A DNA stretch of 32,213 nt. Origin: Bacteroidota bacterium. Its GTDB lineage: Bacteria > Bacteroidota > Bacteroidia > Bacteroidales > VadinHA17. Below, one piece after another: positions 1 to 32,213 of this stretch (position 1 is its first letter; the number at the start of each line of letters is the position of its first letter). Location of the stretch: the NCBI GenBank assembly GCA_011049175.1, contig DSCJ01000097.1, forward strand, positions 1 through 32,213. The letters are read 5' to 3'. The position numbers were made by a program, and so were the translations under genes. The notes under the pieces are model-generated. The model worked only from the letters and a program-made list of their open reading frames with translations, made no database searches and was not told where the DNA came from.

Positions 1-96
1 AATATATACTCAGCATTTTTCGTACATACCCTGTATCCTTTGCGGTTGAGAATTTTCTTAGACAGCTTCTTCCTTCCTGATAAATTATAAAAATAA
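1..96. other. Left-edge segment, coding status unresolved
   Basis: No start codon with a convincing gene is visible. One plus-strand frame is open from the window edge to a TAA at 88-90, and one minus-strand frame is open from inside the adjacent repeat out through the edge. Neither resembles a family I recognise. The stretch is AT-rich. It could be the 3' end of a gene lying to the left, or plain intergenic DNA; the sequence here cannot decide. Confidence 0.25.
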
Positions 97-345
97 GCCT
101 CTGAGGGTTTTATGAGAAAAACATAGCAGGGAAAAATGCGCCATGGCCTGTGCAGCGATCCTGTCTGAGTCCCTGACAGGCGAAGCGCTGTCAGGGACGG
201 GTTTGGATCGCGGCAGGCTTTCCTCCGCCGTCGTTTTTCCATAAAAGCATCAGTAGCCGGAGGATTTTTTTGCCTGCTTTTTTCATCCCTGAAAAAAGCA
301 GGTCGTTTGCCCCAGGGCGGCAAACGAAACCGGCCTGAGGGGCTG
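97..345 (+). repeat. Structured dispersed repeat, copy A
   Basis: About 249 bases recur at 31625-31880 (copy B), and the 3' half recurs at 31309-31437 (copy C), all in the same orientation. The 5' part (108-246) folds as one long imperfect hairpin. Its outer arms are TTTTATG (108-114) and CATAAAA (240-246), its middle arms GCGATCC (155-161) and GGATCGC (205-211). The apical stem is CCCTGACA, bulged G, GCG, loop AAG, CGC, TGTCAGGG (171-196). Two perfect hairpins follow: 273-302 (13 bp, loop TCCC) and 303-327 (9 bp, 7-base loop). GCCGG near 255 can pair with CCGGC near 330, closing a multi-branch structure. Paired bases differ in a compensatory way from copy B. It may be a MITE or REP-like element, or a structured RNA. 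Confidence 0.85.
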
Positions 346-540
346 GTGGCATGAATGTATCAAAGATAAAGTGACAAGTACGAATTTTATTTCACCTGAC
401 AGGTGATGGTTTTTTTCAGTAATTGATTGAATAACGATATATTGATTGTTTTCTCAAAAAGACTTGCGAATTTGAGGACGTAGATAGATCTGAATCGCCG
501 GATACAACCCGGAGTTTCAGGTAAATGGTACCATGAAGCA
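346..540. other. Intergenic region between repeat A and the C1 protease gene
   Basis: No gene is seen. It contains a small hairpin, TCACCT-GAC-AGGTGA (392-406), followed after three bases by seven T on the plus strand (410-416). That is a weak intrinsic-terminator-like structure and would end transcription running rightward out of repeat A. ATGGTACCAT at 525-534 is a perfect 10-base palindrome just beyond the stop codon of the minus-strand protease gene. Confidence 0.35.
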
Positions 541-2751: not shown

Positions 2752-3345
2752 ATGCGGCGTCAATTCTTTCAACGGATCAACCCGCCGAAAAAGTGGCGCT
2801 GGCCCGTTTTGGGCCTGGTGGCGATATTCTCCGGCCTGATCCTTTTTACCCTGTACCTTTCCAAAGCCCCTTCCTATTTTTCCGACAAGCCCGAAACCTG
2901 TGTCAACTGCCACATTATGGCTCCGCAGTATGCTACGTGGAGCCACAGCTCGCATCGCGAATGGGCCCACTGCAACGATTGCCATGTTCCGCATAATAAT
3001 GTGCTGAACAAATATTATTTCAAGGCCAAAGACGGCCTGCGGCATGCCACCGTTTTCACGTTGCGGAAGGAGCCTCAGGTGATACATATCAAGGAAGAGG
3101 GAAGGGAGGTGGTTCAGAACAATTGCATCCGGTGTCATGATCACCTGCTGGATCATTTCCGTTACCTGGCGGGAACAGGCCCTCATCTGGAAGAGATGAC
3201 CGGCCGTCTTTGCCGGGACTGCCACCGGGAAGTGCCCCACGGAAGGGTGAATAGCCTGTCGAGTACGCCCAACGCACGAGTCCCCCTTCCGCAGAGCCCG
3301 GTTCCCGATTGGCTGAAAAAACTAACCGAAACACAAAAAGATTAA
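2752..3345 (+). CDS. nrfH: Cytochrome c nitrite reductase small subunit NrfH
   Basis: This is a 197-residue tetraheme membrane cytochrome of the NapC/NirT/NrfH family. One transmembrane helix (about residues 17-37) anchors it, with the hemes on the periplasmic side. Four CxxCH motifs are visible at Cys50, Cys74, Cys125 and Cys154. The first reads CVNCHIM, the CxxCHxM form that in NrfH supplies a methionine ligand to heme 1. NrfH oxidises menaquinol and passes electrons to NrfA in the membrane-bound complex. The length is slightly above the usual 150-170 because of a Pro-rich C-terminal tail. The stop is three bases before the nrfA ATG, so the two are one operon. Confidence 0.97.
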   Translation: MRRQFFQRINPPKKWRWPVLGLVAIFSGLILFTLYLSKAPSYFSDKPETCVNCHIMAPQYATWSHSSHREWAHCNDCHVPHNNVLNKYYFKAKDGLRHATVFTLRKEPQVIHIKEEGREVVQNNCIRCHDHLLDHFRYLAGTGPHLEEMTGRLCRDCHREVPHGRVNSLSSTPNARVPLPQSPVPDWLKKLTETQKD

Positions 3346-3348
3346 CCC

Positions 3349-4842
3349 ATGAAATCCATCCGGAACATTACCGAAAAAAAACCCTGGGTCGGCTGGTTCC
3401 TGTTCTGCCTGACTGTTGTGGTCGTTTTTCTTCTGGGACTGCTGGCAGCGTCCATTGTGGAAAGGCGCGCCGAAGCGGTTTTTGCCTATACTCCCCAGGT
3501 GGATATCCGCGAATTCGAACCCCGGAATGAAATCTGGGGACAGAATTTTCCCAGGGAGTATCAGTCGTATCTGCAGACAGCCGATACTTCCTTCCGGAGC
3601 CGGCACAACGGGAGCGCCTTTATCGACATGCTGGAAGTGGATCCCCGGCTGGTGGTGCTGTGGGCGGGCTACAGCTTTTCCAAAGAGTACAACCAGGGAA
3701 GGGGGCATTATTACGCGGTGCAGGATATTCATGAAATTCTCCGTACCGGCGGTCCCACCGCCCCAGGTGAAGGCCCCATGCCCAATACCTGCTGGACCTG
3801 CAAAAGTCCCGATGTACCCCGGGTGATGTCGGAAGTGGGGGTGGAAGAGTTTTACCGGGGAGCCTGGGCTTCGCGCGGGCCGCAGATCGTGAATTTTATC
3901 GGCTGCGCCGACTGCCATGACCCCGAAACCATGAACCTGAGGATCACCCGGCCGGCCCTGCTCGAAGCTTATGAACGCATGGGGAAGGACATCGGCCGGG
4001 CCAGCCATCAGGAAATGCGTTCGCTGGTGTGCGCCCAGTGTCACGTGGAATATTATTTCAGGGGAGAAGGCAATTACCTTACCTTTCCGTGGGACAATGG
4101 CTTCTCCGCCGAAGAAATGGAAGCGTATTATGACGGGTATGGTTTTGCCGACTGGACCCATGCCCTGAGCCGCGCTCCCATGCTGAAAGCCCAGCATCCC
4201 GATTACGAGGTCTATATGACCGGGATCCATGCCGACCGCGGCGTGGCGTGTGCCGATTGCCACATGCCCTATAAAAGCGAGGGAGGAGTGAAATTTACCG
4301 ATCACCACATTCAAAGCTCCCTGAACAACGTGGCCAGTTCCTGCCAGGTGTGCCACCGGGAAGAAACGGAAAAACTGGTGGCCAATGTGTACCGGCGCCA
4401 GGAACAGATCCTGGAAAACCGCGACCAGCTGGAGCGCTTGCTGGTGAGGGCCCATGTGGAAGCCGCAGAAGCCTGGAAACTCGGCGCCACGGAAGACGAA
4501 ATGGAAGATATCCTCACAGGCATACGGCATGCCCAGTGGAGATGGGATTATGCCGCCGCCACCCATGGGGGCTCCTTCCATTCGCCTGTGGAGCTCAGCC
4601 GGCTGATCGGCACCGCCATCGACAGGGTACAGGAAACCCGTATCGGGCTGGCCCGCCTGCTTCTGAAAAAAGGATACGAAGGAGAAGTGCCTTATCCGGA
4701 CTTATCAACCAAAGCCAGGGCACAGGCTCTCGTGGGTCTGGATATGAAAGCGCTGAACGAAGAAAAGCAGTATTTTCTGGAAAATATCGTGCCCGCATGG
4801 CTCCAACAGGCGGCCGAACGGGAAGCGGGATGGGGAAAGTAA
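3349..4842 (+). CDS. nrfA: Ammonia-forming cytochrome c nitrite reductase catalytic subunit NrfA
   Basis: This is a 497-residue pentaheme enzyme that reduces nitrite to ammonium with six electrons in the periplasm (the last step of dissimilatory nitrate reduction to ammonium). The active-site heme has the diagnostic CxxCK motif, CWTCK at 148-152. The other hemes are CADCH 186-190, CAQCH 228-232, CADCH 301-305 and CQVCH 332-336. By alignment with the E. coli enzyme, Glu234 and Tyr235 (CHVEYY) with Lys280 and Gln282 should bind calcium, and Tyr235 and His283 (KAQHPDYE) line the active site. A hydrophobic N-terminal helix (about 13-35) serves as signal or membrane anchor. It is coupled to nrfH. 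No terminator of note follows; only a weak hairpin before TTTTAT near 4875. Confidence 0.98.
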   Translation: MKSIRNITEKKPWVGWFLFCLTVVVVFLLGLLAASIVERRAEAVFAYTPQVDIREFEPRNEIWGQNFPREYQSYLQTADTSFRSRHNGSAFIDMLEVDPRLVVLWAGYSFSKEYNQGRGHYYAVQDIHEILRTGGPTAPGEGPMPNTCWTCKSPDVPRVMSEVGVEEFYRGAWASRGPQIVNFIGCADCHDPETMNLRITRPALLEAYERMGKDIGRASHQEMRSLVCAQCHVEYYFRGEGNYLTFPWDNGFSAEEMEAYYDGYGFADWTHALSRAPMLKAQHPDYEVYMTGIHADRGVACADCHMPYKSEGGVKFTDHHIQSSLNNVASSCQVCHREETEKLVANVYRRQEQILENRDQLERLLVRAHVEAAEAWKLGATEDEMEDILTGIRHAQWRWDYAAATHGGSFHSPVELSRLIGTAIDRVQETRIGLARLLLKKGYEGEVPYPDLSTKARAQALVGLDMKALNEEKQYFLENIVPAWLQQAAEREAGWGK

Positions 4843-5001: not shown

Positions 5002-8000
5002 ATGCTCCCAGCCCGATCTGTCAAGCCGAGAACCCTGCTGCTGATCTCAGCATTCATTGTACTGGCCGGCCTCCTGGCATTTGCCACCCTCCATTATTTC
5101 AGGAACTACAAGCAGGGAATCATCCGGCAGGTGGAAAATGAACTTGCAGCGGTGGCGGAACTGAAAATTTCCGAGCTGACCCGCTGGCGCCAGGAAAGAT
5201 TTTCTGATGCATCGGTATACTACAGGAATGACAATTTCAGCAGTCTGGTTTCTCGCTATATTGAAGAAGAAAATGGTGAATCAGAGGAAAGGCTGAGGAT
5301 CTGGCTGAGGCAGATCAGGGAGGCCTACGACTACGACCGCATCTGCCTGCACGATACCTCGGGCAGGGAACTGATTGCCTGGCCGACGGGTACTGTTCCC
5401 ATCCCGCATGCTTTTCACCAGGACCTGCAAAAAGCGCTTGTTTCGGGGAGCATCATGTGGGAAGATTTTTATATGAATGAATACGACGGGAACATCTACC
5501 TGTCAGTACTTACACCGGTCATTCAGGAAGGACCCGACAGTACGGTGATCGGGGTGCTGGGTTTCCGGATCGATCCCGAAACCTACCTGTATCCCATGAT
5601 CAACCGCTGGCCCGTACCGAGCCGGACGGAAGAAACCCTGATTGTACGGAGGGAAGGTGACGAGGTGGTATTCCTCAATTCCCTGAGGTTCAACCCCGAT
5701 GCCGCCCTGAACCTGAGGGTGCCGGTGAGCGAAATGAGTCTGCCGGCGGTGCAGGCGGTTACCGGTCACATGGGCATTACGCGGGGAACAAACTACCGGG
5801 GCACTCGAGTCTTTTCCTGTGTGGCGCATGTGCCGGGTTCGGAATGGTACCTGGTGGCCAATGTGGATGAGGAAGAGGCACTTGAGCCCCTGGCTGAAGT
5901 GCGCAGGAACCTGGCCATGATGGTGTTTTCCCTGCTGGTCCTTACCGGGGGATTGATGGGAATGATCTGGAGGCAGCAGTATATTGCTTCCATTAAGGAA
6001 AAAGCGGAAACGGCCGAAAAACTGAGGAAGCTCAACCGGGTATACGCCGTGCTGAGCGATATCAACCAGGCCATTATCCGTTTCAGGGACAAAGAAGCGC
6101 TGTACCGGGAGGTGTGCCGCATTGCCACCGGCAAAGGGGAATTTCTGCTTGCCTGGCTGGGGAAATATGACCCGGGCACCGAACAGGTGGATATGGTAGC
6201 CTTCGATACCCAGGCTGAGATGGATGCGGAAGGGGTTATTCCCGATATGCACGACAGCAGCGAGAGTGCCCGGCCAGTATTCAGGTGCATTCAAACGGGC
6301 GAACGGATCATTGTGAACGACATCATGGCAGAACCGGCCCTGGCTCCCTGGCATGATCAGTCCCGGCAGGCGGGTTTTCGTTCCATGGCGGTTTTCCCCC
6401 TGAAGGTTGGCGAGGAACTCTGGGGGATTTTTACCCTGTATGCTTCCGCACCGCATTTTTTTGATGAGGAGGAGATCAGGTTGCTCGACGAACTGGCCAT
6501 GGATATTTCTTTTTCCATTGAATATATGGAGCTGGAAGAAAAAGAGAGGGAAACACGCGAAGAACTGAAGAAAATAGAATGGCTGCTGCAACCCGGGGAT
6601 TTCAGGGACCACATTCATGCACCGGTGTACGGTGACATTACCCGGCTCAATCGCGGAGGACTGATCCTGGAGGCGGTGGGGAAGGAAGCCCTTAACGGCA
6701 TTATCGGCGAATTCATGGACCTGCTGGGAACTTCCAGCGCCGTGTACGAAAAGAACGGGGATTACGCGGCAGGCATTTTTTCCTCGGGATGGTGCCGTTT
6801 CATGGACCGGTGTTCGTTTGAGCTCTGCGGAACGGATAACCTGGCCGAAGCACTGCAATCGGGCAGGTGGCATTGCCATGAATCCTGCTGGAAAGATGCG
6901 GCAGTGAAGAGCATGGAAACCAATGGCCCTGTAGATATCGAATGTGCCGGGGGAATCCACCTGTATGCCGTTCCCATCAGGGCGGGAGAGGAAATTATTG
7001 GATCCATCAATTTTGGCTACGGCAACCCCCCGCGGGACCGGGAAACCCTGAATGAGCTGGCGGAGAAATATGGTACCAGCCCCGAAATCCTGCAGGAAAA
7101 AGCCGAAGAATATGAAAGCCGTCCCCCCTTCATTGTTGAACTGGCCAAGTTCAGGCTGGAAGGGGCAGCCCGGCTGATCGCCCTGATGGTGGAAAGGCAT
7201 CGCACCCGCCAGGAACTGGAGAATGCCCGTTATCTGATGGATTATATCATCCGGCACGATCCCGATGCCATTGCCGTATTTGACCGGGATATGAAATATA
7301 TTTTTGTGAGCGAACGCTACGTGCAGCATTTCGGCCTGGAAGAAACAGAGCTGATGGGGAAAGTGTATGATGAGGTTTTGCCCGATACTTCGGATGAGAT
7401 GAAGAAAGTTTACAGGGATGCATTGAAAGGCAAAATCACACGCAAAGAAGAAGATGAATTTGTAAGAGAAGACGGAGAAAAAATAGTTACCCGCTGGGAA
7501 TGCCGCCCATGGCATAATGCCGACGGATCTGTGGATGGCGTTATTCTATATATCGAGGAGATCACCGAAGAGAAAAAAGCCGAAATGGAACTGCGGGAAA
7601 GTGAGTCAAGGTACCGCAGCCTGGTGGAATATGCCCCCGATGCCATCTTTATCAACCTTTTCGATAAGGTGATCATGGCCAATAAAGCCTGCCTGGAAAT
7701 GTTCGGCGCTGAAAATCCCGAAGAACTGGTCGGGAAGTCGATATACGAAATATTTCATCCAGACAGCCACGATCTTGTCCGGGAACGAATACGGGTGCTG
7801 CACGAAACGGGTGAGGCTGTGCCCCCTGTGGAAGAGAAAATGGTCAGGCTTGACGGCCAGGTGGTCGAAGTGGAAACGGTGGCAGCTCCCTTTTCCTATG
7901 GAGGGGTGAATGCCATTCATGTGATACTGCACGATCTGACCCGGAGGAAGCTGGACCAGAAGAAGCTGGAGGAAAGGAACGCCTTTATCCAGTCGATCCT

Positions 8001-9117
8001 GGACAATCTCCCCATAGGTGTGGCTGTGAATGAAACGCAGACCGGGAAGGCCACCTATATGAACCGCATGTTCGGGCAAATTTACGGCTGGCCGAACAAA
8101 GAGCTGACCAGCGTGGAACGGTTTTTCGAACTGGTGTATCCCGATCCGGAGTACCGGGGCATGATCATGAAGAAGGTGATGGAAGACATCCGAAGCGGCG
8201 ATCCATCCCGGATGCACTGGGAAGAGATCAGGGCGACCACCGCGGAGGGAGAGAAGAAATATGTAAATGCTGTGAACATACCGGTGCCGGGGCAGGCCGT
8301 GATGGTATCCACGGTCCAGGATGTGACGGAAATCGTGGAAGCACGCATGCGGTTGGAGGATATCAACCGGGAGCTCGAAGAAAGGGTAACGGAACGAACC
8401 GCCCAGCTTCAGGCTACCAACAAGGAGCTCGAGGCCTTTGCCTATTCGGTGTCACACGACCTGCGGGCTCCGCTTAGGGCCATCGATGGCTTCGCCCGGA
8501 TCATTGAAGAGGAATATGCCCCGCAACTCGACCGGGAAGGAAGGCGCCTGTTCGGCGTGGTACGTGAAAGCGCAGAAACGATGGACAAACTGATATCCGA
8601 CCTGCTGGAGCTTTCCCGCACAGGCAGAACATCCGTCAAACCCGAAAAAGTGAATATGGCGGAGGTGGTGAGATCGGTGTTTCTTGAAATTGTTCCGGAG
8701 GACACAAGAAAATTGTTCCGCATGCAGATAGGCAAAATGCCCGATGCCCGGGTCGACCCGTCCCTGATAAAACACGTATGGACGAATCTGTTGTCGAATG
8801 CCGTAAAATATTCCATGCCGTCAAAAACGAAAAAGATCGAGGTGGGCGGAACCAGGAAAGAAAACAAACTGATCTATTTTGTCAGAGACCATGGGGTGGG
8901 ATTCAATCCGGAGTATGCCCACAAGTTGTTCGGGGTGTTCCAGCGCTTACACAGGTCGGAAGAGTTCGAAGGCACCGGCGTGGGGCTGGCCATTGTGCAA
9001 CGCATTGTGCACCGGCACGGAGGAGAAGTATGGGCCGAAGGGGAAGAAGGGAAAGGGGCCACCTTCTGGCTCAGCCTGCCGTTACCTGGCGTGGAAACCA
9101 AAAAAGAACATGGATAG
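5002..9117 (+). CDS. Membrane sensor histidine kinase: extracellular sensor, GAF, PocR, three PAS, HisKA, HATPase
   Basis: This 1371-residue kinase has a first transmembrane helix at about 10-32, a Cache-like periplasmic sensor up to about 300, and a second helix at about 303-324. The cytoplasmic part holds a GAF domain (about 340-505) and a PocR-type ligand domain (about 543-730) with its cysteine-rich stretch and the ECAGGIHLYAVPI motif (Cys648). Three PAS domains (about 735-1110), a coiled coil and HisKA with the phospho-accepting His1152 in SVSHDLRAP follow. The HATPase has N-box NLLSNAVKYS and G-boxes DHGVGF and GTGVGLAIV. It carries no receiver; the Rcp1-type regulator 62 bases downstream is the likely partner. 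The SHDLRAP H-box matches the phytochrome-like kinase group, though no chromophore domain is present. PocR domains bind small organic ligands in known cases; the ligand here is unknown. A start at 5002 puts the first membrane helix near the N-terminus. Confidence 0.95.
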   Translation: MLPARSVKPRTLLLISAFIVLAGLLAFATLHYFRNYKQGIIRQVENELAAVAELKISELTRWRQERFSDASVYYRNDNFSSLVSRYIEEENGESEERLRIWLRQIREAYDYDRICLHDTSGRELIAWPTGTVPIPHAFHQDLQKALVSGSIMWEDFYMNEYDGNIYLSVLTPVIQEGPDSTVIGVLGFRIDPETYLYPMINRWPVPSRTEETLIVRREGDEVVFLNSLRFNPDAALNLRVPVSEMSLPAVQAVTGHMGITRGTNYRGTRVFSCVAHVPGSEWYLVANVDEEEALEPLAEVRRNLAMMVFSLLVLTGGLMGMIWRQQYIASIKEKAETAEKLRKLNRVYAVLSDINQAIIRFRDKEALYREVCRIATGKGEFLLAWLGKYDPGTEQVDMVAFDTQAEMDAEGVIPDMHDSSESARPVFRCIQTGERIIVNDIMAEPALAPWHDQSRQAGFRSMAVFPLKVGEELWGIFTLYASAPHFFDEEEIRLLDELAMDISFSIEYMELEEKERETREELKKIEWLLQPGDFRDHIHAPVYGDITRLNRGGLILEAVGKEALNGIIGEFMDLLGTSSAVYEKNGDYAAGIFSSGWCRFMDRCSFELCGTDNLAEALQSGRWHCHESCWKDAAVKSMETNGPVDIECAGGIHLYAVPIRAGEEIIGSINFGYGNPPRDRETLNELAEKYGTSPEILQEKAEEYESRPPFIVELAKFRLEGAARLIALMVERHRTRQELENARYLMDYIIRHDPDAIAVFDRDMKYIFVSERYVQHFGLEETELMGKVYDEVLPDTSDEMKKVYRDALKGKITRKEEDEFVREDGEKIVTRWECRPWHNADGSVDGVILYIEEITEEKKAEMELRESESRYRSLVEYAPDAIFINLFDKVIMANKACLEMFGAENPEELVGKSIYEIFHPDSHDLVRERIRVLHETGEAVPPVEEKMVRLDGQVVEVETVAAPFSYGGVNAIHVILHDLTRRKLDQKKLEERNAFIQSILDNLPIGVAVNETQTGKATYMNRMFGQIYGWPNKELTSVERFFELVYPDPEYRGMIMKKVMEDIRSGDPSRMHWEEIRATTAEGEKKYVNAVNIPVPGQAVMVSTVQDVTEIVEARMRLEDINRELEERVTERTAQLQATNKELEAFAYSVSHDLRAPLRAIDGFARIIEEEYAPQLDREGRRLFGVVRESAETMDKLISDLLELSRTGRTSVKPEKVNMAEVVRSVFLEIVPEDTRKLFRMQIGKMPDARVDPSLIKHVWTNLLSNAVKYSMPSKTKKIEVGGTRKENKLIYFVRDHGVGFNPEYAHKLFGVFQRLHRSEEFEGTGVGLAIVQRIVHRHGGEVWAEGEEGKGATFWLSLPLPGVETKKEHG

Positions 9118-13955: not shown

Positions 13956-16900
13956 TTGCTCGACAGCTTACCGGGCATGGCTTTTCGCTGCCTGGATGAT
14001 GCGAACTGGACCATGCTGTATGTAAGCAGGGGATGTATGGAACTGACCGGTTTTCAGCCGGAAGCATTGATCGGGAACAGGGATTATCCCTACGAACACA
14101 TTATCCATCCGGACGACCGCAAGAGGGTAAGAGAGGAAGTCCATACAGCCTTTTCACAGGGTCGGAGCTATGAGCTAACCTACCGGATCAGGACGCGCGA
14201 CCGGCAAACCCGCTGGGTGCTGGAACGGGGATTTAAATCGGAAGAAGCGTACCGGGAAAAACGAATTATTGAGGGAGTGATTGTGGATATTACCGCCCGG
14301 AAGAAAGCCGAGGAGCGGCTGTTGGCCGAAGAAAATTTGCTGAGGAGTGTGCTGAGAAGTATTCCCGGTGGCGTGGGGATGGTCAGAAACCGCATCCTGA
14401 TATGGGTGAACGACACGTTTTGCCGTATGTTCGAGCGTCCGGAAGAAGAACTGATCGGGAAAAACACCTCGGTGATTTATCCGTCAACACAGGAATATGA
14501 ACGGGTAGGAAAGGAACTGTACCCGGCCCTCGAAAGAGACGGGTTTGCCGGTTTGGAAGCGGAGCTGATAACAGGCACCGGCCGGTTGCTCCATGCCATT
14601 TTTACCATCACACATGTCAACCCCCAAAAACCGGAGGAAGGAGCTGTTTTTGTGGTGACCGATGTTTCGGGCATGAAAAAGGTGGAGCGGGAGCTCAGGG
14701 AAAGTGAAATGAAATACAGCCAGCTCGTACGTTCAAACCCCGATTCTATCATGGTGATTTCCGGGGGGAAATATGTTTATGTCAATCCGGCCGCTTTCAA
14801 AACGCTGGGTTACAGAAATGCGGAAGAGGTAACCGGTTTGGAAGCGGATGTAACGGTTCACCCTGATTTTCGGCTCTTTATCGAAAACCGCAGAAAGAAA
14901 GCCCTGCAGGGGGAGACCAATCCGCCGGCAGTGATCCGCATGCTGAAGAAAAACGGGGAAACCCTGTGGGCCGAAACCTATTCCATGCCCATGGTTTATC
15001 AGGGAGAGAAAGCCGTAATGGTCATAGCTAAGGACGTTACGGAAAAACTGATAGCTGAAGAAAAACTCAGGCAGAGCGAAACCCTTTTGAAGAAAATATA
15101 CGACACGACCCCTGTGGGATTGGGGATCATGCAGAACAGGGTACTGAAGAGCGTGAACCGGGGTTTTATGCAGATAACGGGATACAGTGAGGAAGAGCTG
15201 CGGGGACGTTCAGCCCGAATGCTGTACCACAGTGAAGAAGAGTTTAACCGGGTGGGTAAACTGATAGAGAAATTCAGGACCGACCGGTCGTTCCAGCCTA
15301 TTGAAACGGTGATCAGGCATAAAACGGGCAGGGAAGTCCCCGTATATTTCCAGACCCTGCCGGTACTGGCCACCGACCTGATGGGAGAAATGGTGTTTTC
15401 CGTAATCGACCTCACCCCCATCAGGGAGGCGGAAACCAGAATGCAGCAAAGCCAGACCACCTTCCAGACCTTTATGGATAACCTGCCGGCCAGCGCCTAC
15501 ATCAAGGATGACAGGCTGAGGCATGTTTTTGTGAACCGGTATCTTCTGGATATTACAGGCCTGAAAGAGGAAGAGATCATCGGAAAAAAAGGACGGGAAG
15601 TATTTCCGCCCTCCACTGCTGAAGCCATGGAGCGAATGGACCAAATCGTTCTGGACAAAGGGAAAACAGTTACCCGGGAATATCCGATTGTTCTTCCGGG
15701 GGGAGAAACATCCTGGCAGTATGATATCAAATTTCTGCTTACCGGCGTGGACGGCTCCCGGATGGTAGGCGGGATCAGTGTTGACATTACCCGGCGGAGG
15801 GAAATGGAAGAAAAACTGCGCGAAAGCGAGGAAAGGTTCCGGGCCCTGGTCAGCTCCATGGAAGATATTATTTTTACACTGGATACCCGCGGACGTCATA
15901 CAGGTCTTTATGGAAGGTGGGTGGAAAAATACGCGGCCAGTCCGGCAGATTTTCTTGGGAAAAGTGCGGCGGAAGTGTTCGGTAAAAAGGCCGGCAGGGT
16001 GCATATGGAAGCCAACAGGAAAGCCCTGAAGGGGGAATTTCTGGTATACGAGTGGAAAGCCGGCGATGGGGAAGAGATAAGCCATTTTCAGACCTCCCTC
16101 AGCCCCATAAGAAACAGTAAAGGACAGGTTTCGGGCCTGGTTGGGATCGGCCGGGATATTACGGAGCTCAAAAAAGCAGAAGCACAAGTGCGCGACAGCG
16201 AAAAGAATTTCCGTGCCTTCATGGATTATATACCCGCTTACATTGTGTTGAAAGACAGCCATCTGAATTATGTATATGCCAATAAGCGGTTGATCACTGA
16301 TCTGGGTATTACGGAAGACGACCTGAAAAACCTGAAAGATGAGGAACTGTTTGATCCGCACATGGCGGAAACCATCATACGGCTGGAGAAAAAGGTCATG
16401 AGACAAAAAAACGTGCAGGAAATTCCGGAAGTCAGGATCAGGTGGAAAAACCGGGAGCGGTGGCTGCGCGGCGTGGTGTTCCCGGTTATCATGTCTGGGA
16501 ATGAGGAATTCGTCGGGGAATTCTATGTGGATATCACCGCCCATAAACAAATGGAAGAAACGCTCCAGCAGGCCCTCCAGACTTCCGATGACATTGTCCG
16601 GACCATTCCTTCCGGATTGTTAATTTTCGGACTTGCAGGAAAAGGGCAGCTAATCCTGGAAGGAGGCAACCCCCAGGCCGCCCGCATTACGGGAATGAAA
16701 ATCAATGACTGGCTGGGCAGAACCTTTGAAGAGATCTGGCCCGATAAGGCAGGAGAAGGCCTGAAAAAGACTTTTCTCAAGGTAATTGAAAAGGGAAATA
16801 CATACCACAATGATGATTTCCATTATGAAGGGAAATCTTTAAAAGGCACTTTCCGCATCAGGGCTTTTCGCATGCCCGGCCAGCGGGTGGGTGTGGCATT

Positions 16901-17993
16901 TGAGGATATTACCGTATTTAAGAAAGCGGAACAAAACCTGCGCGAAAGTGAAAAAAAATACCGCGATCTGGTGGAAAAAGCAGGTATCGGCATCCTGATC
17001 GACAACCGGGAAGGGAGGATAACCTATGCCAACCGGGTGCTGGCGAAAATGTTCGGATATTCCATGAATGAGATCGTGCGGATGAAAAATACCGATCTTT
17101 TTTCCCGGGAAGACATTCCCCGAATCATGGAATACCACCGGAAAAGAATGGCAGGGGACAGGGCCCCTTCGAGGTATGAGCTGAGGGGAGTCAAAAAAGA
17201 CGGGAAAGTTTTCTGGATAGAAATAAAAGTGACACCCCTGAAGGAAAAGAACCGGATTACGGGCACCCGCAGCTACCTGTGGGATATTACCGAAAGAAAG
17301 AAAAGGGAAGATGAACTGAGGGAATCATACCGGCAGATCAGGGAGCTCAGCCGGCACCTGGATAAGGTGAGGGAGGAGGAACGAAAAGGCATTGCCCGGG
17401 AAATTCACGATGAGTTGGGTCAGATCCTTACCGCATTGAAAATAGACATTTCCTGGATGGAAAAACGTTCAGGCCGGGAGAAGCCGGAATACCTGGCTAA
17501 AGCCCGGTCTATGAAAGAAATGGCCGATATGGCTATCCAGAGTGTTCAACGGATATCGGCGGAACTGCGGCCCAGCCTGATCGACGACCTGGGACTGAAA
17601 GATGCCCTGGAATGGATCATGAACGACATGGAGAGAAGATCGGGGATCCGTATTCAATTCGATATGGCTCCCGAAGTCACTGACATCGACACGAAGCAGG
17701 CCATTACCGTATTCCGCCTGGTGCAGGAGGGCCTGACCAATGTGGCGAGGCATTCGGAGGCTGACCGGGCAAGGGTTTCCATTACGCCCAGGGAAGGAAT
17801 GCTGAAAATCATTATTTCGGATAACGGAAAAGGCGTTGAACCGGAAAAGATGCGCTCAGTCGAATCGCTGGGCATTATGGGCATGCGGGAACGGGCCATG
17901 TTGTACGACGGCGATGTGCAGATATCGGGGGAAAAAGGAATCGGAACAACAGTAACTATCCAGATGAAATTCCATAAACAGGAACAACCATGA
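13956..17993 (+). CDS. Cytoplasmic histidine kinase with nine PAS domains and a HisKA_3 core
   Basis: This 1345-residue protein is read from TTG 13956; the next in-frame ATG is at 13977. The frame is open only after a TAA at 13950, so the annotated start is forced and is probably not the ancestral one. Nine tandem PAS/PAC units fill residues 1 to about 1115, separated by linkers of the DITxRKKAEExLRESE type. No transmembrane segment is visible. The kinase core is HisKA_3 with His1151 in REIHDELGQILTALK, then a HATPase with N-box EGLTNVARHSEA, G1 ISDNGKGV and GIMGMRERA, as in NarX/DegS/UhpB-type kinases. The response regulator gene overlaps the stop by four bases (ATGA), so they form a coupled two-component pair. 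Some PAS units may bind redox or gas-sensing cofactors; this cannot be seen. Confidence 0.9.
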   Translation: MLDSLPGMAFRCLDDANWTMLYVSRGCMELTGFQPEALIGNRDYPYEHIIHPDDRKRVREEVHTAFSQGRSYELTYRIRTRDRQTRWVLERGFKSEEAYREKRIIEGVIVDITARKKAEERLLAEENLLRSVLRSIPGGVGMVRNRILIWVNDTFCRMFERPEEELIGKNTSVIYPSTQEYERVGKELYPALERDGFAGLEAELITGTGRLLHAIFTITHVNPQKPEEGAVFVVTDVSGMKKVERELRESEMKYSQLVRSNPDSIMVISGGKYVYVNPAAFKTLGYRNAEEVTGLEADVTVHPDFRLFIENRRKKALQGETNPPAVIRMLKKNGETLWAETYSMPMVYQGEKAVMVIAKDVTEKLIAEEKLRQSETLLKKIYDTTPVGLGIMQNRVLKSVNRGFMQITGYSEEELRGRSARMLYHSEEEFNRVGKLIEKFRTDRSFQPIETVIRHKTGREVPVYFQTLPVLATDLMGEMVFSVIDLTPIREAETRMQQSQTTFQTFMDNLPASAYIKDDRLRHVFVNRYLLDITGLKEEEIIGKKGREVFPPSTAEAMERMDQIVLDKGKTVTREYPIVLPGGETSWQYDIKFLLTGVDGSRMVGGISVDITRRREMEEKLRESEERFRALVSSMEDIIFTLDTRGRHTGLYGRWVEKYAASPADFLGKSAAEVFGKKAGRVHMEANRKALKGEFLVYEWKAGDGEEISHFQTSLSPIRNSKGQVSGLVGIGRDITELKKAEAQVRDSEKNFRAFMDYIPAYIVLKDSHLNYVYANKRLITDLGITEDDLKNLKDEELFDPHMAETIIRLEKKVMRQKNVQEIPEVRIRWKNRERWLRGVVFPVIMSGNEEFVGEFYVDITAHKQMEETLQQALQTSDDIVRTIPSGLLIFGLAGKGQLILEGGNPQAARITGMKINDWLGRTFEEIWPDKAGEGLKKTFLKVIEKGNTYHNDDFHYEGKSLKGTFRIRAFRMPGQRVGVAFEDITVFKKAEQNLRESEKKYRDLVEKAGIGILIDNREGRITYANRVLAKMFGYSMNEIVRMKNTDLFSREDIPRIMEYHRKRMAGDRAPSRYELRGVKKDGKVFWIEIKVTPLKEKNRITGTRSYLWDITERKKREDELRESYRQIRELSRHLDKVREEERKGIAREIHDELGQILTALKIDISWMEKRSGREKPEYLAKARSMKEMADMAIQSVQRISAELRPSLIDDLGLKDALEWIMNDMERRSGIRIQFDMAPEVTDIDTKQAITVFRLVQEGLTNVARHSEADRARVSITPREGMLKIIISDNGKGVEPEKMRSVESLGIMGMRERAMLYDGDVQISGEKGIGTTVTIQMKFHKQEQP

Positions 17994-31269: not shown

Positions 31270-31308
31270 AACCCCACAGGTAAATCCCAATACGCGGATC
31301 CCGGTTAT

Positions 31309-31437
31309 TCATCGCTGAAAAAAGCAGGTCGTTCGCCGTGGGGCGGCGAACGAAAACCGGCCTGAGGGGCCGGGTAAACGGTTTATCAGGATAAAAAAAA
31401 ATATACTGCCGTCCCTACGGGACTTATTGGAATATAT
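31309..31437 (+). repeat. Structured dispersed repeat, truncated copy C
   Basis: It corresponds to the 3' part of copy B (about 31811-31940) and lacks the long 5' hairpin. The 9-bp hairpin TCGTTCGCC / GGCGAACGA (31329-31337 and 31345-31353) is intact with a loop differing from A and B. The tail hairpin GTCCCTACGGGAC is at 31411-31423. It ends exactly where the transposase remnant begins. Confidence 0.8.
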
Positions 31438-31560
31438 TTAATGCATTGTTACTACTGATTCAATATTTTCTTTTGCTCCGGCCTTTGAAATACATCCATC
31501 TAAAATCTCCCGGACAACATCTCGTTTGAATGATTCGGTGTAATAATTATATCCTTTCAT
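31438..31560 (-). pseudogene. IS3-type transposase OrfA, N-terminal fragment
   Basis: A 40-codon frame begins at ATG 31560 (MKGYNYYTESFKRDVVREIL) and stops at 31438. The first 30 residues match the start of IS3-family OrfA helix-turn-helix proteins, which normally run about 90-120 residues and continue with a Tyr-Gly-Ile-x-Gly segment. Here the sequence diverges (IESVVTMH) and ends, so the gene is truncated. It would not be functional. Confidence 0.65.
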
Positions 31561-31600: not shown

Positions 31601-31624
31601 TCCCTTACTCCCTCACCAGGACAG

Positions 31625-31931
31625 GCCTCTGAGGGTTTTATGAGAAAAACAAGGCGGGGGAAAAAGCGCTATGGCCTGCGGAGCGATCCTGTCTGAGCCA
31701 CTGACGAGGCTTTGCCCGTCAGGGGCAAGTTTGGATCGCGGCAGGCTTTCCCCCGCCGTAGTTTTTCCATAAAAGCATCAGCAGCCGGAGGATTTTTTTG
31801 CCTGCTTTTTTCATCCCTGAAAAATGCAGGTCGTTCGCCATTGGGCGGCGAACGAAAACCAGCCTGAGGGGAGGGTAAACGCTTCATCAGACCCCCAAAA
31901 AAATATACTGCCGTCCCTACGGGACTCATTA
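31625..31931 (+). repeat. Structured dispersed repeat, full copy B with tail
   Basis: It aligns with copy A from GCCTCTGAGGG onward and extends further through a tail shared with copy C. The long hairpin spans 31636-31774: outer arms TTTTATG and CATAAAA, an 11-bp perfect stem GGCGGGGGAAA / TTTCCCCCGCC (31653-31663, 31747-31757), GCGATCC / GGATCGC (31683-31689, 31733-31739), and the apical stem CTGACG, bulged A, GGC, TTT, GCC, CGTCAG (31701-31722). Two further hairpins lie at about 31801-31830 and 31831-31855. The tail carries GTCCCTACGGGAC (31913-31925), a compact palindromic hairpin. Confidence 0.88.
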
Positions 31932-32066
31932 GGATTTATTTGATCCGTTTTTTATATCCCTTGATGCTCCTGACCGCGAAACCCTGGAAATGCATGGTTG
32001 TGGGGGATATAGGTTATGAATCTCCTGTCGAATGAACCTGCTGCGGTGATCTCCCCCGACAAACAA

Positions 32067-32086
32067 CTACGTAGGTACCAACGTAG
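32067..32086. promoter_or_regulatory. Near-palindrome, candidate operator of the antitoxin-like gene
   Basis: CTACGTAGGTACCAACGTAG is a 20-base inverted repeat with a perfect GGTACC centre and outer CTACGT/ACGTAG arms, broken by one mismatched pair. It lies 10 bases before the candidate -33 element, a place suited to autoregulation as found in toxin-antitoxin operons. Confidence 0.45.
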
Positions 32087-32096
32087 ATAACTGGCT

Positions 32097-32132
32097 TTGT
32101 TATGATATAATCAGCAATTATTTGTATATTTG
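32097..32132 (+). promoter_or_regulatory. Candidate promoter of the antitoxin-like gene
   Basis: TATATTTG (32125-32132) matches the Bacteroidota -7 consensus TAnnTTTG exactly. TTTG ending at 32099 is the nearest -33 candidate, but the gap of 25 bases is longer than the usual 19-21. The start codon follows 14 bases after the -7 box. Confidence 0.5.
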
Positions 32133-32146
32133 GAAAAAATGCTGTT

Positions 32147-32213
32147 ATGGAATTGTCAGAAATTAAACAGGCTATTGAAAAACTCAGTGAAGAGGAGCGT
32201 CAACAGCTACTCA
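32147..32213 (+). CDS. N-terminus of a small antitoxin-like protein (cut by window end)
   Basis: Twenty-two codons are visible: MELSEIKQAIEKLSEEERQQ then Leu-Leu, running off the right edge. The helical pattern with a Leu-Ser-x-Glu-Glu-Arg-x-x-Leu turn is typical of short addiction-module antitoxins (Unstab_antitox-like) and related small proteins, whose toxin gene usually follows. A good -7 box and a near-palindrome precede it. With so few residues the family is only a suggestion. Confidence 0.45.
   Translation, partial: MELSEIKQAIEKLSEEERQQLL

Follow-up and report, generated by a model that had tools for sequence, protein, structure and literature searches.

A conserved folded module, with the potential for a pseudoknotted triple helix, as probable cargo of several MITE types in Bacteroidota

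The window analyzed here, a stretch of 32,213 nt that is the whole of one contig (C37) of a 3.24 Mb, 139-contig assembly of a Bacteroidota bacterium, carries copies of a repeat with nested hairpins, which raises the question of what this element is, whether its pairing is under selection, and what moves it. Copies A (97–345) and B (31625–31871) are 88–91% identical, and a third, copy C (31305–31369), retains part of the repeat (Table 1). Re-reading of the sequence confirmed the letters, coordinates, arms, and loops given for all three copies in a preliminary description of this DNA, and the nested fold reported there as common to A and B is predicted by RNAfold at −119.2 kcal/mol for A and −124.1 kcal/mol for B. 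That the copies belong to a repeat family was borne out by BLAST, which yields at least 47 matches of copy A in the genome, some of them fragments, from the 40 of 114 first-look candidates that were scored. Many of the matches sit at contig ends, and cores arranged in tandem are spaced 377–381 bp apart, core to core, on contigs C60, C6, C87, and C45 and 322 bp apart on C12. The preliminary description recognized no named family; likewise, the window and 18 further loci (15 places) have no Rfam match at gathering score, and E-value scans of short stretches return only sub-threshold miRNA, snoRNA, and sRNA matches. Literature searches by words and by sequence strings, which strings printed only in figures would escape, found no description of the module. 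Taken jointly with the readings as an RNA terminator or cap and as IS1380-MITE cargo developed below, the repeat is, with a little more than even confidence, a lineage-specific variant, amplified in part in tandem, of a folded module of ∼200–300 nt that is itself conserved.

Table 1. Positions in the window of the features of copies A, B, and C and of the element carrying copy A.
Feature	Position	Strand	Remarks
IS1380-type MITE (putative) with copy A, left end lost at contig start	1..477	+	lead, core, alpha3, and right modules in order; right TIR 461-477
MITE leader module, repeated in other copies	1..91	+	82.8% to positions 132-224 of C6-copy leader
P1 5' side, copy A, GC-CT-CTGA; CT is the recurrent internal-loop strand	97..104	+	pairs with 250-257, read on the sequence; same pairing in copy B
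P1 3' side, copy A, TCAG-TA-GC (TA becomes CA in B and most others)	250..257	+	sequence reading
P3 5' strand GCGATCC	155..161	+	other letters, 6/6 pairs, in other genera
Recurrent internal-loop strand TGTCTGA	162..168	+	
Variable apical hairpin, tip inverted in copy B	169..198	+	
Internal-loop strand GGGTTT (GAGTT in most copies)	199..204	+	
P3 3' strand GGATCGC	205..211	+	
Pseudoknot strand GGAT, pairs with loop 285-288 (predicted)	262..265	+	4 pairs only in A and B
T-tract, proposed third strand of triplex	265..271	+	
Hairpin H1 CCTGCTTTTTTC-ATCCCT-GAAAAAAGCAGG	273..302	+	
Hairpin H2 CGTTTGCC...GGCAAACG, terminator-like on minus strand	304..326	+	
MITE right module, ends in TIR GACTTGCGAATTTGAGG (461-477)	352..477	+	
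ACGT adjoining TIR, probable 4-bp target within CTACGTAG	478..481	+	
Copy B, same module, inverted apical tip	31624..31871	+	
Copy B P3, internal loops, inverted apex	31683..31739	+	
Copy B T-tract and hairpin H1	31793..31830	+	
Copy B hairpin H2	31832..31854	+	
Copy C, 3' hairpins only	31305..31373	+	

The differences between the apical hairpins of copies A and B had been explained as compensatory substitutions, but a single inversion of the hairpin tip fits them better. The 12-nt tip of copy B differs from each of 36 A-type tips at three or more positions when reverse-complemented and at eight or more when read directly; the corresponding values are 2 and 8 mismatches against the copy in a genome of the same genus (G001) and 5 and 10 against copy A itself. 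Because a single flip of the tip changes both arms at once, paired differences arise without separate substitutions. By chance, three or fewer mismatches to an A-type tip are reached by 1.4% of random composition-matched 12-mers and by 1.7% of hairpin-forming ones. A second hairpin contains an exact loop flip (GCCCTC/GAGGGC), and in the C66 and C4 units the core has been lost between GGGTTTT repeats. Tip inversions and core deletions are consistent with unstable hairpin DNA. Within the genome the long hairpin has almost no covariation: over 39 full cores (38 from this genome, one from G001), a two-sided change is seen in 1 of 53 pairs, compared with 0.7 in shuffles. The T:A to C:G change noted in the third hairpin is real, but the C12 copy has a one-sided intermediate, C/A. 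The 3' hairpins do covary, at 8 of 20 pairs in 16 sequences, mostly through one split between alpha and beta sub-families and partly through the copy in genome G021. Strong covariation is thus confined to comparisons of one sub-family, or one genus, with another.

Selection for a folded molecule, which had been argued from copies A and B, is strongly supported by other genera and not by that comparison. Plain DNA searches recover copy A in only 3 of 60 relatives, its own genome included, and the exact pattern GTTACTTTTTTG..CAAAAAAGTAAC is absent from 395 genomes of the phylum; exact letters are therefore a poor probe. Among viral contigs, one carries that pattern and none the 22-base 5' pattern. 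A covariance model (R1), for which the 3' hairpins of this genome and of G021 were used, finds matches in 12 of 117 genomes of the family, these two included, and upstream of several R1 matches the long hairpin recurs in different letters, with its motif at 7 of 13 copies. A second model (R2) was built from this genome and two others (g7 and g11) with shortened apices, since with full-length apices MAFFT misplaced GAGTT. It has matches in 68 of 295 genomes of the order, this one included, and in 55 of 184 genera, with copies per genome ranging from 1 to at least 11, the scoring cap, which several genomes reach. Unlike the within-genome result, the covariance-model check on relatives gives two-sided changes in 20 of 21 pairs among 42 aligned matches from 36 loci. 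Cells changed on both sides number 235 in these 42 matches, against 66.5 ± 6.7 when shuffled and at most 60 when slid, in an alignment that is fitted to the model but in which 30 of the 36 source loci (29 other genomes plus copy A) played no part in building it.

The letters of the stems change whereas the shape of the fold is kept. P3 is spelled GATCC/GGATC here, CAATAC/GTATTG in g7, AAAAT/ATTTT in g11, and AAAATG/CATTTT in g3, and it always surrounds strands resembling TGTYTGA...GAGTT, with 6 of 6 pairs (small offset allowed) in 11 of 11 sequences carrying four unrelated spellings. A strict pattern of motif plus stem is present at 18 of 37 loci, the failures including members with mismatched stems such as that in G539. 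P1, with a CU/CA internal loop between complementary arms, is found at 12 of the 18 strict loci, of which one does no better than chance (21 of 100 shuffles), and was not detected at the remaining 6; its spellings are again unrelated, for example GAC-CT-CATCTC/GAGATG-CA-GTC in G735. These comparisons show a predicted long hairpin (P1, P2, and P3) with recurrent internal loops CU/CA and UGUYUGA/GAGUU and a variable apex, followed by hairpin H1.

The segment preceding the T-tract is complementary to the loop of H1, again in changing letters (CTTGAT/ATCAAG, CTTGAC/GTCAAG, CTTGAA/TTCAAG, CTTGACC/GGTCAAG, and CGGCN/N'GCTG). The longest Watson-Crick run has a mean of 4.95, compared with 3.81 after permutation, and none of 2000 permutations is as high. 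Counting G-U, at least 5 pairs form in 32 of 42 rows, again with 0 of 2000 permutations as high; the pairing fails, with at most 3 pairs, in five of the 42 (L247 twice, L249, L252, and L255) and reaches only 4 in copies A and B. The T-tract in turn matches the purine strand of H1 in the parallel (Hoogsteen) orientation at 102 of 127 positions over 43 rows, those from one genome not being independent, a total reached by 0 of 2000 permutations, nor reached when G-bearing rows are permuted alone. The purine arm has an internal G in 14 rows; in 11 of them at least one G lies opposite a C (best register), the exceptions being L234, L239, and L256, and a C lies inside the matched segment in 12; no C does so in the 29 rows with an all-A arm. 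Taken alone, the count of G opposite C is not above expectation when tracts are permuted among the G-bearing rows (1261 of 2000 reach it). T-tract length correlates weakly with the length of the purine run (rho 0.36). The strand order S1-L1-S2-S1'-L3-S2' is that of an H-type triple-helix pseudoknot, for which telomerase RNA and the ENEs of transposon RNAs offer comparisons, and its pairing is kept by covariation. By these patterns of complementarity, most copies are able to fold their 3' part into an H-type pseudoknot that contains a T.A-T / C+.G-C triple helix. The last loop, after the pseudoknot pairing, has only 1–3 nt, which is short for crossing 5–6 bp in an RNA pseudoknot; S1 may therefore form only in part, or the triplex may be one of DNA.

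The order and orientation of the modules are consistent across the fetched loci: the element begins with the left end and leader, continues with the core hairpin, the 3' hairpins of alpha or beta type, a spacer, and additional cores, and closes with the right module and right end. Mapping of the six modules detected neither leader nor right modules at copies B and C. The ends are inverted copies of CCTCAAATTCGCAAGTC, and the end pattern GACTTGCGAATTTGAGGAC has 22 matches in this genome and none for the reversed control. ACGT lies directly outside the end at 9 of 23 ends in this genome (after dropping 4 further rows as chance matches in hairpin loops), 2 of 7 in G001, 5 of 5 in G026, and 2 of 2 in G003. 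The target is palindromic, and five intact end pairs show no clean duplication, the closest being C21 with 3 of 4 bases. In G003 the end adjoins a gene for a 436-aa IS1380-family transposase (NF033539, E 1.5e-61, above cut-off; contig C261), the other end lies on contig C255, which shares 141 identical bases with the 5' part of the IS element, and the MITE end is found at both ends of the element (C261 and C255) with 2 and 3 mismatches. An exact copy of the end (0 mismatches) lies on G001 contig C152 beside a decayed IS1380 gene that has one stop and an identity of 43% over 117 aa. By count alone, matches to the TIR are not above the reversed control (2 versus 2 in G003; 5 versus 4 in G026), so that the link to IS1380 is drawn from the position of the ends at IS ends and from the flanking ACGT. 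The assembly of this genome has no match to the IS1380 transposase, and multicopy genes are easily lost from assemblies. From the shared ends and their position beside IS1380 genes, copy A is therefore best read as the cargo of an IS1380-type MITE.

The module is not tied to one carrier. In G539 it lies in a MITE of 314–316 bp with GGCTCTAT ends, which we take to be ISL3-like, and perfect 8-bp target duplications flank 4 of 6 copies examined, the end search having missed the other two. A 367-bp element of G650 has GGG..TGCTGAAAAA ends and, read by eye, 6-bp duplications in 2 of 3 copies. In G719, TCCTGTTTTGTG ends stand ∼1 kb apart in 2 of 3 copies and are lacking in the third, and one flank in G003 is similar to these ends. 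The dispersed unit of G735 (∼230–265 bp) has no recognizable TIR. By comparison of ends, the module rides in three, probably four, MITE types with unrelated termini, two of them with target duplications.

Among named hosts, three records of Parabacteroides distasonis were found by BLAST, two of which were confirmed with R2, and Ilyobacter polytropus (Fusobacteriota) has the module at 39–47 bits with motif and H1. On plasmid pAT6 of Aureibacter tunicatorum (L298 1430–1543) the module sits within a type I-D CRISPR operon, with cas7d on one side and cas5d on the other, in the same sense as the genes. In P. distasonis NZ_OY725754.1 (L295 1406–1964, near 17.8–18.1 kb of the record) two inverted modules surround a 'smalltalk' gene between HU-family and amidase genes, and genes of the same two kinds flank a single module in NZ_OY725823.1 (near 2.1–2.3 kb). 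A wide occurrence of TGTTTGAGC..GAGTT repeats among Proteobacteria was not confirmed, a collection of 5,426 E. coli genomes being without a match to the Parabacteroides copy.

What the module does has to be judged from its layout. A structured non-coding RNA, one of the candidates put forward in the preliminary description, remains the best reading of the cargo, and its most likely role appears to be that of a terminator or insulator through which the insertion of a MITE can be tolerated. No sign of another of those candidates, a recombination site, emerged from the analyses made. This is favored because the base of P1 closely precedes the T-tract as in an intrinsic terminator, because H2 of copy A is terminator-like on the other strand, and because, of 26 placements with a left ORF (30 examined, 4 without one), 19 have that gene directed into the module, although ORF calls were crude and the 19:7 bias is modest. 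Two features count against it: the recurrent internal loops exceed what a terminator needs, and a T-tract taken up in a triplex may not be free to act in termination. The active form would be RNA, transcribed from an upstream gene or from the MITE; the P1 base followed by a triplex-locked T-tract would end transcription and cap the 3' end; insertions insulated in this way would be tolerated, so that several MITE families would keep the module; and an IS1380-family transposase would mobilize the MITE of copy A through its terminal repeats, at CTACGTAG sites. As a whole, this proposal of a folded module with a pseudoknot and triplex, carried as MITE cargo, acting as an RNA terminator or cap that insulates insertions, and mobilized by IS1380, is held to be somewhat likelier true than false on sequence comparison. 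A broader form of it is possible and is put forward only tentatively: that this is an undescribed family of folded RNAs with a pseudoknotted triple-helix end, a shared passenger of unrelated MITEs in Bacteroidota and at least one fusobacterium that any MITE can pick up, which ends and protects transcripts at insertion sites as a counterpart of eukaryotic transposon-RNA triple helices.

In the main rival reading, DNA is the active form of the module: an intrastrand triplex and a cruciform, made by the T-tract, H1, and the long hairpin, would cause replication to pause or would draw in transposase or recombination, with selection or drive acting on single-stranded DNA. Polypyrimidine mirror repeats suit H-DNA as well as RNA, intrastrand DNA triplex repeats linked to instability are described for bacteria (PMC4666352), and the tip inversions and the deletions between GGGTTTT repeats in the genome's own copies are what unstable single-stranded hairpins would be expected to produce. 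However, the unpaired CU/CA and UGUYUGA/GAGUU loops have no obvious use in a DNA triplex, and both the P1 base with its T-tract and the orientation bias suit transcription, so that a DNA role is regarded as unlikely, if a serious contender. Less probable still is a trans-acting or protein-bound regulatory RNA for which MITEs are merely the vehicle: recurrent internal loops and a knotted 3' end do resemble RNAs with a binding partner, but the ORF lists, read by eye, offer no obvious recurrent neighbor, and copy number varies from genome to genome as given above. It is very improbable that selection is absent and that palindrome correction by template switching keeps the arms matched and mimics covariation, since this leaves the recurrent unpaired motifs, the pseudoknot match, and the separate Hoogsteen match of the T-tract unexplained, even though inversions in two hairpins show that such events happen and core covariation within the genome is no higher than in shuffles. 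Finally, of the earlier proposal of a REP or MITE element moved as a single strand by a Y1 (IS200-like or RAYT) transposase the MITE part stands, whereas the Y1 part, to which hairpins and intergenic multicopy placement would be suited, has next to no probability, with no match to Y1_Tnp (PF01797) in this genome by a search whose control is positive in 5 of 14 genomes, and with IS1380-family ends and target duplications of the DDE-type MITE kind.

Several known systems share parts of this picture. The BrickBuilt MITE of Porphyromonas gingivalis (PMC4596501) is like the carrier in being a MITE of Bacteroidota in which tandem repeats lie between a leader and a tail, in its long predicted stem-loops and intergenic position, and in the report of no Rfam match; it differs in having 23-bp repeats without spacers and no BLASTn match beyond the species. 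The 23-bp tandem unit is not what is seen here, where units stand 322–381 bp apart, the fold is common to many genera, and several MITE types carry it. With the IS1380 family and its derived MITEs (NCBIfam NF033539) the element shares the ends of its A copies, which match those beside the transposase gene of G003 and the decayed one of G001, whereas the folded cargo is not part of the IS and this genome has no match to the transposase. Like the module, the TM_ECO repeats (PMC4666352), which form intrastrand DNA triplexes, are intergenic and have three strand segments able to form a triplex, but they have a G/C-rich purine motif and are reported to be unlinked to mobile elements, whereas the motif of the module is a pyrimidine one, rich in A/T, and belongs to a larger fold carried by MITEs. 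Compared side by side, the module does not show the TM_ECO pattern CCCTCNCCC...GGGNGAGGG, its order being pyrimidine-pyrimidine-purine and A/T-rich. H-type triple-helix pseudoknots, among them that of the SAM-V riboswitch (PMC6061858), resemble the module in strand order and in a U-rich loop 1 beside an A-U-rich stem 2; the module differs in its very short last loop, has no known ligand or host gene, and may not act as RNA. A 131-bp repeat of Fusobacterium nucleatum, of the same phylum as Ilyobacter, is described as multicopy, intergenic, and of no known role (PMC1924603), and it may be a relative, its sequence being given in a figure only. MITEs with repeats (PMC4596501), intrastrand triplex repeats (PMC4666352), and triple-helix pseudoknots are thus each known, and no account of their combination as a shared cargo came up in the literature searches described above.

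About a quarter of the genomes sampled from the order (68 of 295) contain this structured family, which is unannotated. MITEs are usually viewed as empty transposon shells, and a conserved fold in shells with unrelated ends suggests that small transposons share a functional nucleic-acid cargo. The third-strand covariation makes a bacterial triple helix directly testable in vivo, and the copies in a culturable gut commensal allow the module to be tested there.

Other repeats occur near the module. Short arrays of CTACGTAG-like units lie beside both the MITEs and the multicopy IS described next (window 32068–32087; L086, L087, and L084) and may be a shared landing site or excision footprints. 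Window positions 32090–32213 hold the left end of another multicopy IS, with an ORF starting MELSEIKQAIEKLSEEERQQLL; its left end is found at 25 places and its right end at 21, almost all at contig ends, and as these are nearly identical they indicate a recent burst. The short N- and C-terminal ends of its product have no Pfam match, and the 37-aa C-terminal end has no plasmid match and is absent from 39 relatives. As far as seen, this IS is not the mover of the repeat. Sites in G045 resembling the TIR (L172–L177, with a GACTTGCGGATTTNAGGAA-like string) were not taken for relatives, having no ACGT flank and no transposase among the three longest ORFs listed, and are perhaps an unrelated repeat. 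A REP-like sequence, AAAAAAATATACTGCCGTCCCTACGGGACT, adjoins copies B and C (window 31395–31450 and 31897–31952), and a similar string occurs near a module fragment in G001 (L055). In the same genome (C143; L052 1–350) a module copy lies at the tip of a long foldback, its flanking sequence, which includes CTACGTAG, recurring in inverted orientation on the two sides. Elsewhere in the window, translations as read indicate probable nrfHA-like cytochrome c nitrite reductase genes (2752–4842), followed by apparent large multi-PAS histidine kinases (5002–9117 and 13956–17993).
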